A stretch of DNA of 35,902 nucleotides from NCBI GenBank assembly GCA_021108275.1, contig JAIORD010000051.1:1-35902 (forward strand), written 5' to 3'. How positions within the stretch are numbered: the first letter of the stretch is position 1; each line of letters opens with the position of its first letter. The stretch comes from Methanococcoides sp. Lineage in GTDB: Archaea; Halobacteriota; Methanosarcinia; Methanosarcinales; Methanosarcinaceae. Positions 6,081 through 31,351 of this stretch are shown here, piece by piece. Below the pieces are notes generated by a model. The model searched no databases and was not told the origin of the DNA. It was given only the letters and a program-made list of their open reading frames with translations. A program made the position numbers and the translations under genes.

Positions 6081-7610
6081 ATGACCCAAAAAAGATTGAA
6101 AATATTGATCATTGATAATGAAAATGATAATGTTGAAATGCTGGAAGCCATACTCAGCTCCGACTATGAAGTTATAAAAGCATATTCCGGTTACAAAGGT
6201 CTTGAGATCGCAATTGCTGAAAGTCCTGATATAATCATACTTGACATTATGATGCCGGACATTACAGGTCATGAGCTATGCAGGACATTGAAGAAAGATG
6301 AACGCACAAAGCTCATACCTATCATCATGCTGACATCACTGGCAGAAAAGGAAGAGAAAATAAAAAGCCTTGAAGAAGGTGCAGACGATTTTCTCAACAA
6401 ACCTGTCAGTCATATGGAAATATTAAGCCGTGTGCAATCCCTGTTAAAAATAAAACACTTACAGGAAAACATAATCCAAGAAAGGAACCAGGCATATAAA
6501 TATCTCGATGCAGCAGGCACTATCATTGTTATAATCAACACGGACACGGAAATAGTATTCGCAAATCAGAAGACCTGTGATATCTTTGGTTGGGAGAAAA
6601 AGGATATTCGCGGTAAAAGCTGGATAGATTTTATTCCGGAAAACGGACGTGAAAGCCGAAAACAGGACTTGCACAACATCTTGAGCGGTAAAGCCGAACC
6701 GCCTGAATATTACGAACGTTTAATAGTAACTAAAAATGCGGATGGCACGTTTTCCGAACGCATAATCCTCTGGCATGATGTGATATTAAAAGATAGTGAA
6801 GGCAACATCACAGGGATAATTCGTTCAGGGGAAGACACGACTGAAAGAAAAAATATTGAAGAAGAACTTTCAAAGGCTAACGAAAAGCTCCAGATCTCCC
6901 ACAAGTTGAAAGATGAATTCCTGGCAAACATCAACCATGAACTAAGGACACCATTGATATCAATAAAAGGTTTCAGTGACCTGCTTTACAATGAAAGACT
7001 GGGGGACCTGAACGAGCATCAAAAAAAGACAATGGAATCGGTGGTCCGAAATTCAGAACGCCTGCAACATCTCATAGAATCACTTTTCTATGTAAGTGAA
7101 ATGCAGAACGAGACGATAAAATACACATTCAGTCTTATTAATATCAAAAAAATACTTGAAATTATCAAAAAAGACATGTCCCCCCAGATCGATCAGAAGG
7201 GGATCGAGGTCACTACCGACATTTCCGACTCGCTCTCACCGGTACACGGGAACGCAAAATACATAGAAAGTGTATTGATGCATCTGCTTGGCAATGCTAT
7301 CAAATATACTTCATCAGGAAGGAAGATCTCCATCCTTGCCTCAGAAGAGAACGGGGACATACACATCGTCATAAAAGATACAGGTAAAGGCATTCCAAAA
7401 GAGATGCTTACCCATATATTCAGTGAAGCTCCTGAAGAAGAAACTGAATGTGATATCTGTTACTGTAGTTAGGATTATGGACTGATCATCTGCAAAAAGA
7501 TAATCGAAGCGCATAGAGGCACCATATGGCTAAACAGTGAAGTAGACCAAGGCACCGAGATCCATGTCAAATTGCCTGTATTCGTTGATAAAGGCCCCAT
7601 CTGCAAATAA
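6081..7610 (+). CDS. Receiver-PAS-histidine kinase with in-frame TAG
   Basis: A hybrid sensor kinase. Residues 1-120 are a receiver domain (Asp55 phosphoacceptor in ILDIMMPD, NKP lysine), about 130-255 a PAS/PAC domain, about 270-340 a HisKA dimerisation domain with His286 in NHELRTPL, and about 370-508 the HATPase domain (N-box GNAIKYTSSG, G1 DTGKGIP). TAG at 7470-7472 would end the protein at 463 aa inside the ATP lid. The same frame continues for 45 codons to TAA at 7608-7610 and encodes the rest of a normal HATPase domain (GLIICKKIIEAHRG, then WLNSEVDQGTEIHVKLP). Read through, it is 509 aa with residue 464 as pyrrolysine, the amber meaning known in methylotrophic Methanosarcinaceae. The alternative is a nonsense-truncated kinase. 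The G2 box is degenerate (YGLII for GLGLA). Confidence 0.85.
7470..7472 (+). other. In-frame TAG, candidate pyrrolysine codon (kinase codon 464)
   Basis: This amber codon falls between the G1 and G2 regions of the HATPase domain. Reading frame and homology continue without a shift on both sides (upstream TECDICYCS, downstream DYGLIICKK). Confidence 0.6.
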
Positions 7611-12610: not shown

Positions 12611-12894
12611 TTATTGCTGACAGGGGAGTGCCTTCCAGTGCGCTCTGCAAATTCCTGCATTCTTACAGATGTTCTGCCAATGCCAGAAAGCTCATCTTCT
12701 GAGATTACCGAAGCAAGATGGTTTCCAAGTACAAATATGGCATGTTTATGATCTGCTTTACTGCGATGGATATGAACAGGACTTATTGACAGTGATCTAT
12801 ATTCAGAAAAATCATAATCACTGCTCTGAGATTCCAAATGTCTCTTTATCTGAGCTAATAATGTATGCAACTGAATCAATTCATCTTTTTGCAT
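12607..12894 (-). CDS. UPF0058 family protein
   Basis: The protein is 95 aa starting MQKDELIQLHTLLAQIK, with the family's conserved core ISPVHIHRSKADHKHAIFVL; the His-rich segment suggests metal binding. UPF0058 proteins are small and euryarchaeal, with unknown function. Homology is clear from the N-terminal and core motifs. The tail (about 75-95) is not conserved as far as I can judge. It is convergent with rimI and overlaps it by 4 nt. Confidence 0.85.
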   Translation of the reverse strand: MQKDELIQLHTLLAQIKRHLESQSSDYDFSEYRSLSISPVHIHRSKADHKHAIFVLGNHLASVISEDELSGIGRTSVRMQEFAERTGRHSPVSNN

Positions 12895-13078
12895 GGTTTT
12901 AGTCCGTTTTCTTTACAACACACTATTTGTGTGCGTTGCATTACAGTAAACTTAAGACTCAAATAAAACCATTATTCGCGGACGAGCATTTCCTATTTAT
13001 CATATAAATGTTTTTTGATTTATTTTTTATGATTAATAATGCTCTATTGAGGGAAAAAGAGAAAAAGAGAAAAGATTT

Positions 13079-23684: not shown

Positions 23685-24461
23685 ATGCAAGTGAAGGACA
23701 TAATGGTAGAACCGATATCTATTGATAAAGCAGACACGATATCCCATGCGCTTGATGTTATGGAAAAGAAGGATACACGCCGCCTTTTGGTAAAACATGA
23801 CGATAATCTTATCGGCATACTTACAATGAGAGGTATTACTAAAGAACTTGGTACACGAAAGAAAGGGGCTAAACCTGCATCTTCACTCCATGTAGCAACT
23901 GCTGTTTCAGATAAATTCGTAAAGGTCCTTCCTGATATGGATGTGGACGACGCACTTATACTGATGGCAAATGACCGCGGTATTATAATTGTAAGCGAGA
24001 ATGAGAAGATCCTCGGTTGGGTTACACCAAATGAAGTGCTGAACAATAGTCAGATCGATGGTTATGCTGCTGAGATAATGAACAAAGAACCTATAACCGT
24101 ACATCCAGGAGACAGAGTCAGCCATATCAGACACATAATCCTTGATGAAGATATTGGAAGGTTCCCTGTTATTGAGGATGGCAAACTTATAGGTATTGTC
24201 ACTGAGCAGGATATCGCTAAGTCAATGCGTGCTTTCAGGGATATTGTTTCTGGAAATCAGCAAGATTCACGCATTAAGAACCTCATTGTCGAAGATATTA
24301 TGAAAAGAGGTGTCAAGACCGTGAAATCCAACACTCTGATGTCGGATGTTACAGCGATGATGCTCAAGGAAAAGATCGGTGGTTTGCCGGTAATGAACCT
24401 TGAAGGAGATATGGTAGGTTTCATTACAAGAAGAAACATTATTAGTGCGTTTGCACAGTGA
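23685..24461 (+). CDS. Four-CBS-domain protein, last of the array
   Basis: The protein is 258 aa with an ATG preceded by AAAGAGGTGAG (23668-23678). Four CBS motifs are visible ([13 protein letters not shown]... GILTMRGIT; a degenerate second one ending [19 protein letters not shown]... [19 protein letters not shown]... GFITRRNII). Its stop is 4 nt before the ATG of the RNA ligase gene, so ligase translation is probably coupled to it. That makes the ligase the best candidate partner of the CBS array. Confidence 0.9.
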
Positions 24462-24465
24462 AAGA

Positions 24466-25635
24466 ATGAGACCTGATGATGCTGATCGTATCATATTGGA
24501 TGTGAGGGCAGCTGCAGATTATCTGGACCTGCCCGTATCCAAACTCCAGAAATTATTACAAAAGCGTGAGCTTTTGCAGCTCTGGGGAGAACATCAGCAT
24601 CTTTTTCGTTTTGATACATCTATTTCTCATATTGACAGCGGGTCAGTTCTGTAGCAAAAGAACGGCTGTTTTGAACTTATAAGAGGATTTCCAAAGATAC
24701 AGCGAGCCATGCTGTTAAAACCTGCTATAGAAGCTCACTTTTTTGATGTCAAGACAGTATGTGTCGAAGAGAAGATGAACGGTTTTAATGTGCGTATCGT
24801 GACATTTGACGGGAAGATCATTGCCATAACCCGCGGAGGTTACGTCTGCCCTTATTCCACTGAAAGGGCACAGAAGTTTTTGGATATTGACTTTTTTGAA
24901 GAACATCCAGAACTTGTGCTCCACGGCGAGATGGTAGGTCCTGATAATCCTTATATCCCAAAGAAGATCTACAATGTCGAGTCCCTTGAACTTTTTGTTT
25001 TCGATATAAGACATAAGCATACTGGCATTCCCCTTCCGCTTCATGAGCGAAGGCAGCTTGCAGAGGAATATGGATTCACACAGGTCAGGCTCTTTGGCGA
25101 ATTTCCAAAGGAAGAAGCTCCCTTAAGGATAAGTGAGATCATCAGGGAACTTGGGAAGATAGAACACGAAGGCGTTGTTATCAAAGATCCCATGATGGAT
25201 ATAGCACCTTTAAAATATACCTGTTCGCAAAGCAATTGTGCAGACCTGAGACATGCTTTCAAGTTCTACAATGATGTCGGCAGGGATTATCTGTTCTCCA
25301 GGGTGGTGCGCGAAGGTTTTCAGGCAGTTGAATGGGAAGAGACATCTGATGATATAGACAAGCGCTGCCTGCAACTTGGGAGAAGTATACTTTACCCCAT
25401 GATAGATTCGATCAACGATATAGGAAATGGCTCCCTTGTAGCCGATGAAGTTCAGATGAGGGTATCAAGCCTTGAGACCGTTTCAAAGTTCAAGGAATAT
25501 TTAAGACGGCAAGGCATGGCAACCATTTTCAGTGAGCCTGAGGTGGTAGGTGATGAATTTATTGTCAAGATCAGGAAGCTGAGCAAGAGTACCAATGATA
25601 AGACGCTTTCTATGTGGAAGGGAGAAACATGGTAA
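24466..25635 (+). CDS. ATP-dependent RNA ligase (archaeal Rnl3 type) with in-frame TAG
   Basis: The whole frame from ATG 24466 to TAA 25633-25635 is 390 codons; codon 63 is TAG (24652-24654). Reading TAG through gives 389 aa, the normal length of Rnl3 ligases, which join RNA 5'-phosphate and 3'-OH ends or circularise RNA. The N-terminal part (1-62) matches the family's N-domain. After the TAG come ELIRGFPKIQRAM, motif I EEKMNG (Lys103 as the AMP-accepting lysine), RGGYVCPYSTE, motif III HGEMVGP, FDIRHK, motif IV HEGVVIKDP, motif V LKYTC and the C-terminal dimerisation region. Starting at the ATG at 24709 would lose the N-domain and GFPKI block. Pyrrolysine at residue 63 is the simplest reading. 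A GTG at 24445 could be an alternative start. Coupled to the CBS gene. Confidence 0.9.
24652..24654 (+). other. In-frame TAG, candidate pyrrolysine codon (RNA ligase codon 63)
   Basis: The frame and family similarity are continuous on both sides (upstream ISHIDSGSVL, downstream QKNGCFELIRGFPKIQ). A weak stem CAAAA/TTTTG (24655-24673) follows directly. No frame change is needed. Confidence 0.75.
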
Positions 25636-30832: not shown

Positions 30833-30890
30833 ATACTTCGATATGTTCTTCAGTCTTTACTCATTTTACAGATCGGCATTATCAGTGCTA

Positions 30891-31301
30891 TTAGACCTTA
30901 TCGAACAATTCAATGCCTTCAAATCTGCACTCTGCAAGCCTTCTTTCAAATATCAGATAGCGAAAACGCTTGAACAATGCGTATGTTCTGAAATATGTCC
31001 TGAAAAGCATGGAAGAATATGTACTGCTGCCGTAAAAGAACAGTTTTTTATCATCTCTTAGAGAATCATCCACGAATCTCACAACACCATCTGCATTGTC
31101 CAATCTCACAAGAGTTCCCTGAACAAGAAGTGGACCAAGAACGATGGCGTCTTCCTCCATCCCATCAGCGCCTACTGTACCTTCAATAAATCCATAATTG
31201 AATATCGTAGGTATAGGGGAAAAGAACACTCTTTTGTATTCATCTCCCACTTTGTGGTACTTGAAAAAACTGAACTTGGGGGTCTCTATCCTTATACGCA
31301 T
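30891..31301 (-). CDS. Inorganic-pyrophosphatase-like protein
   Basis: The protein is 136 aa. The core YGFIEGTVGADGMEEDAIVLG resembles, over 21 residues, the soluble type I pyrophosphatase block in which three Asp bind Mg2+; two of the expected Asp are visible (ADG and EED). The protein is shorter than typical PPase (about 165-180 aa) and the C-terminus is rich in aromatic and basic residues (FRTYFRTYALFKRFRYLIFERR). It may be a divergent family member with altered activity. No operon partner is certain; the convergent GTPase ends about 95 nt away. Confidence 0.65.
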   Translation of the reverse strand: MRIRIETPKFSFFKYHKVGDEYKRVFFSPIPTIFNYGFIEGTVGADGMEEDAIVLGPLLVQGTLVRLDNADGVVRFVDDSLRDDKKLFFYGSSTYSSMLFRTYFRTYALFKRFRYLIFERRLAECRFEGIELFDKV

Positions 31302-31351
31302 TCAAATAAAGTAAGCACTCTTTTTTAAAACACTTTTTGGATTACAGAGGC

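Follow-up and report, generated by a model that had tools for sequence, protein, structure and literature searches.

The locus raises the question of whether a TAG codon inside a histidine kinase gene of Methanococcoides ends the protein or is translated and, if it is translated, whether it makes signalling by this kinase depend on the growth substrate. The gene lies in a window of 35,902 nucleotides, the whole stretch of DNA that was analysed, which belongs to a draft genome of 2.67 Mb in 60 contigs. Features of the window and the related loci elsewhere in the genome are listed in Table 1.

Table 1. Features of the window and of other loci discussed in the text.
Feature	Location	Strand	Basis or remark
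Sensor kinase gene REC-PAS-HisKA-HATPase, 509 aa via TAG readthrough	6081..7610	+	Domains; ten stop-free orthologues
In-frame TAG, codon 464; CAG (Gln) ancestral; pyrrolysine predicted	7470..7472	+	Orthologue codons CAG (four) and CGG (six)
45-codon tail, end of HATPase domain (G2 remnant DYGLIICKK, last helix, last two strands)	7473..7607	+	PF02518 match; structure model
Unusual ATP lid	7413-7499
RNA ligase (TIGR01209, Pab1020 type), independent in-frame TAG at 24652-24654	24418..25635	+	Profile match; genus comparison
pylB	L031:14293-15354 (G000 contig C1)		Seems to end at TAG
Rad50	L046:16214-18877 (G000 contig C12)		In-frame TAG
PAS histidine kinase paralogue	L041:14622-16982 (G000 contig C7)		In-frame TAG
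PAS histidine kinase paralogue	L093 (contig C1)		In-frame TAG
ABC1/UbiB-like kinase	L057:13782-15410 (G000 contig C7)		In-frame TAA

Structure of the interrupted kinase gene

The frame opens with ATG at 6081, reaches the TAG and then runs on for 45 codons to a TAA at 7608-7610, a same-frame continuation that was re-derived here from the sequence. Read through the TAG, the product comprises a response-regulator receiver domain (residues 8-118), a PAS domain (approximately 142-257), a HisKA domain (277-343) and a HATPase_c domain (392-500). Both HisKA and HATPase_c pass the cut-off, and the H, N and G1 motifs are present (HELRTPL, HLLGNAIKYT and DTGKGIP, respectively). In profile searches the HATPase domain scores 72.7 bits with readthrough versus 41.7 bits if the protein ends at the TAG, and the isolated 45-codon tail matches HATPase_c (Pfam PF02518) with E = 2.6e-7. 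This gain in score and the match of the tail alone exclude a chance origin of the tail and identify it as real coding sequence, in agreement with the first-pass annotation, which had described it as well-formed HATPase sequence. A search of a plasmid collection with the kinase recovered distant bacterial kinases and nothing closer.

A structure model of the kinase assigns a helix to residues 467-477 and strands to residues 481-484 and 492-500. Residues 449-465, which form the ATP lid, are modelled at low confidence, and residue 464 is located in this loop, directly ahead of the last helix. According to the model, termination at the TAG would strip the last helix and the last two strands from the ATPase fold and, because of this loss, it is very probable that the 463-residue form would not act as a kinase.

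The first-pass annotation had the TAG splitting the HATPase domain between the G1 and G2 regions. The domain is indeed split, but the TAG aligns with the Thr of GTGxG in paralogues and is therefore positioned inside the G2 segment itself. This segment is unusual in the kinase (xxDYGLIICKK). The canonical motif GxGxG(L) is absent from the window sequence and from all ten orthologues found in other Methanococcoides genomes, which share xxDYGL in its place, and residues D465, Y466, G467 and L468 are invariant in all of these sequences (11/11); paralogues at 43-44% identity retain GGTGVGL. The degenerate G2 box had also been taken as a possible sign of gene decay. Since DYGL is invariant in the eleven sequences, it is a feature of the kinase family, and decay of the G2 box in this particular strain is ruled out. 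The lid as a whole departs from the usual arrangement in all 11 Methanococcoides sequences, with one invariant Cys (residue 460) followed by DYGL replacing the G2 motif. This change predates the diversification of the genus and has been retained, and kinases of this family may bind ATP in an atypical manner.

Orthologues and origin of the TAG codon

Full-length orthologues of the kinase occur in ten other Methanococcoides genomes, with 57-98% identity and no internal stops (0/10). Alignment at codon 464 revealed CAG (Gln) in the four nearest orthologues (98, 95, 93 and 85% identical), CGG (Arg) in the remaining six (57-62% identical) and TAG in the window alone. The four nearest orthologues are those of the SMBSF15 MAG, M. 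seepicolus, M. alaskense and one single-contig genome of 2,575,032 bp. Given the codons found in these relatives, the TAG is a private change of this lineage, produced by a single C-to-T transition. The site is thus lineage-specific, falls at a variable position and is separated from a sense codon by a single mutation, as is the case for neutral sites of the Thg1 type. Apparent in-frame TGA or TAA codons in paralogues of the kinase were also considered; in the three paralogues inspected, they are terminal stops overrun by the alignment.

Compared with the nearest relative, the 45 codons downstream of the TAG contain two synonymous differences and one conservative Ile-to-Leu difference, with neither frameshifts nor second stops, and the tail aligns to the orthologues without internal gaps. 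Changes unique to the window number three in the 45 codons after the TAG versus ten in the 463 codons before it. The branch leading to the window is so short that, with three changes in the tail, dN/dS on this branch has no power, and ongoing constraint and very recent relaxation are consequently not separable.

Use of TAG in the genome

The genome encodes a complete pylTSBCD set, in which tRNA-Pyl, with anticodon CTA (CUA), adjoins the pylS, pylB, pylC and pylD genes. The predicted PylS (728 bits), PylB (583 bits), PylC (577 bits) and PylD (396 bits) all exceed the NCBIfam equivalog cut-offs. A census of stop codons covered 756 kb, or about 28% of the genome, and 520 ORFs with coding-like composition; gene calls were based on codon composition, with homology checks covering the TAG cases and a single TAA case. 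TGA terminates 260 of these ORFs, TAA 253 and TAG 7, compared with approximately 95 TAG ends expected from raw triplet frequencies. In five of the seven TAG cases (this kinase, a second PAS kinase, MttB, Rad50 and NadC) the frame continues past the TAG, and the continuation matches the protein family of the part before it, and the only apparent true TAG ends are those of pylB and one 98-aa ORF. Two further genes, encoding a TIGR00295 HD protein and the TIGR01209 RNA ligase of the window, carry a TAG near the gene start. As a control, coding-like in-frame continuations were scored after TAA and TGA, and occur in 34 of 513 ORFs, versus 5/7 for TAG (Fisher p = 3.5e-5). Upon inspection, nearly all of the 34 proved to be downstream genes in their own right, each with a start codon, and one is a clearly broken gene. 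The best reading of these counts is that TAG is mostly a sense codon in this genome.

In the sample, interruptions by TAG (five clear cases plus two near gene starts) greatly exceed those by TAA or TGA (one clear case). Ordinary nonsense mutation would produce the opposite pattern, which disfavours the explanation that the kinase TAG is a recent mutation which terminates translation, leaving either a young pseudogene or a 463-residue receiver-PAS-HisKA protein with another role. The complete pyl set also speaks against it. Such an explanation can draw on the broken genes that do exist in the genome, e.g. the TAA-interrupted ABC1 gene, on the two TAGs (one of them that of pylB) that do resemble gene ends, and on a branch too short to show persisting constraint on the tail; weighing both sides, it is considered unlikely.

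PylB makes a precursor of pyrrolysine. Its gene seems to end at TAG, and readthrough would add 42 codons that overlap pylC. This ending is possibly a feedback on pyrrolysine supply or, alternatively, a leftover stop. In M. mazei, M. acetivorans and M. burtonii, too, pylB is reported to end at TAG (PMC2933860). Elsewhere in the genome, the ABC1/UbiB-like kinase gene with an in-frame TAA is a probable pseudogene or the product of a sequencing error.

Other genes with an in-frame TAG

The kinase had been counted as the second independent TAG case in the window, the other case being probably the RNA ligase. The RNA-ligase TAG is present in 9/11 Methanococcoides genomes, with CAG in G002 and TGC in G008 at this position; none of the full-length matches from other sampled genera of the family has it. 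Based on this distribution, it is the best candidate here, better than the kinase, for a long-kept and perhaps selected pyrrolysine residue. Two apparent TAG ORFs (12669-13007 and 30843-31328) were discarded, as their translations are not protein-like.

Rad50, for which one match was found per genome searched, has a private in-frame TAG in the middle of the protein, where its nearest relative has CAG. The TAG of NadC is likewise private; the nearest relatives carry CAG or AAG instead, and an intact NadC paralogue occurs in the genome. Two PAS histidine kinase paralogues (L041 and L093), 74% identical to each other, each carry a TAG just ahead of the HATPase G1 region, and the two TAGs align with each other, so that this codon may have survived a duplication. 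Sensor proteins of two other Methanococcoides species (L105 and L106) have an in-frame TAG elsewhere, in or near their PAS domains. By comparison of these genes, the TAG of the window kinase is one of a scattered set, partly young and partly old.

Proposed fate of the kinase TAG

Translation of the TAG as pyrrolysine, which the first-pass annotation had considered, is probable and is supported by the pyl genes and tRNA-Pyl, the near-absence of TAG as a stop and an intact tail that is near-identical to its CAG-bearing orthologues. Since TAG is almost never a stop here and the pyrrolysine machinery is present, a full-length product containing pyrrolysine is likely. The gene would then be an intact one, for a soluble REC-PAS-HisKA-HATPase sensor kinase of a Methanococcoides species, in which a single C-to-T transition turned codon 464 from CAG (Gln) into TAG. 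With the stop role of TAG largely lost in the genome, tRNA-Pyl would read this codon as pyrrolysine, and the main product would be a kinase of 509 residues with pyrrolysine replacing Gln in the flexible ATP lid. Because relatives have either Gln or Arg at position 464, a sign that this position tolerates substitution, the change was probably near neutral and would have been fixed neutrally, as for Thg1. This account as a whole, an intact gene with a CAG-to-TAG change read as pyrrolysine, is regarded as likely. Insertion of pyrrolysine, the efficiency of insertion and the retention of kinase activity are what we infer from sequence comparison; by analogy, efficiency may be partial, given that a UAG reporter in M. 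acetivorans yielded only 20-30% full-length product (PMC2933860).

A further suggestion of the first-pass annotation, that the TAG could tie kinase signalling to growth on methylamines, has no specific support. Under this explanation pyrrolysine would be plentiful only on methylamines, full-length kinase would be made mainly then, and the TAG would act as a substrate-dependent switch. The codon is, however, private and stands for CAG, at a position held by Gln or Arg codons in the orthologues, so that it does not constitute a conserved switch. The RNA context after the TAG is ordinary as well, and no stable RNA structure (PYLIS-like stem) was detected within about 100 nt downstream (fold z-score -0.25). 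Moreover, Rad50 and the RNA ligase also carry a TAG, so the effect would not be specific to the kinase and would be costly; as Rad50 and NadC had the same exchange in this genome, a shortage of pyrrolysine would strike all these genes alike. Even though the bacterium Acetohalobium arabaticum adjusts pyrrolysine decoding to its growth substrate (Prat et al. 2012, as cited in PMC8211752), and the structure model implies that a kinase lacking the last helix and strands should be unable to bind ATP, a switch is as improbable as a terminating nonsense mutation.

That the codon is really CAG, and the TAG an error of sequencing or assembly, appears slightly less probable again. It would require a single wrong base, and the kinase TAG is known from one draft assembly of 60 contigs, but other in-frame TAGs occur in the same genome, including that of MttB, where it is expected, the RNA-ligase TAG is common to eight other genomes of the genus, and random errors would interrupt genes with TAA and TGA about as often. 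Least probable of all is that the kinase serves as a sensor of pyrrolysine supply, full-length only with abundant Pyl-tRNA and with an opposing output from the truncated receiver-PAS-HisKA form.

Comparison with known systems

Taken alone, the kinase TAG would be an ordinary neutral substitution, and its value lies in being one of several cases in a genome where TAG acts as a sense codon. Such genes will be labelled as truncated or as pseudogenes by standard annotation, and, besides methylamine use, processes such as DNA repair, RNA ligation and signalling may depend on pyrrolysine. Proteomics by Kivenson et al., in Science in 2025, reportedly showed genome-wide reading of TAG as pyrrolysine in some archaea (a 'Pyl code'). 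The genome studied here resembles those archaea in that TAG hardly serves as a stop any more and occurs within many genes unrelated to one another; it differs in that the evidence is that of sequence, from about 28% of one genome, rather than proteomics, and in that pylB apparently retains its TAG end.

A close parallel for a single gene is Thg1, the tRNA-His guanylyltransferase of M. acetivorans, in which an in-frame UAG arose neutrally outside the methyltransferase genes according to the account in PMC2933860 (original Heinemann et al. 2009). M. acetivorans reads UAG without special context, and the PYLIS element is not strictly required (PMC2933860). In both cases, Thg1 and the kinase, the host is a pyrrolysine-encoding methanogen and the in-frame amber codon is private and lies in a gene other than that of a methyltransferase; the Thg1 residue is dispensable for activity. 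Thg1 activity, however, was tested in the laboratory, whereas the gene described here encodes a sensor kinase and is known from sequence.

In the methylamine methyltransferases MtmB, MtbB and MttB, the last of which also has a TAG in this genome, the in-frame TAG is likewise read as pyrrolysine, but there the residue is catalytic and its position conserved, unlike the kinase position, which varies between Gln, Arg and TAG. Histidine kinase genes with an in-frame UAG had already been predicted in 2013, and the present kinase adds to them. Cluster 16 of Have et al. 2013 groups UAG-interrupted sensory histidine kinases of Methanosarcinaceae, for which pyrrolysine was proposed (PMC3639795). By description, these frames are like the one reported here, in the same family of archaea. 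Cluster 16, however, covers three species (M. acetivorans, M. mahii and M. barkeri) and selection was thought likely by its authors (PMC3639795), whereas the TAG of the present kinase is private to one lineage.
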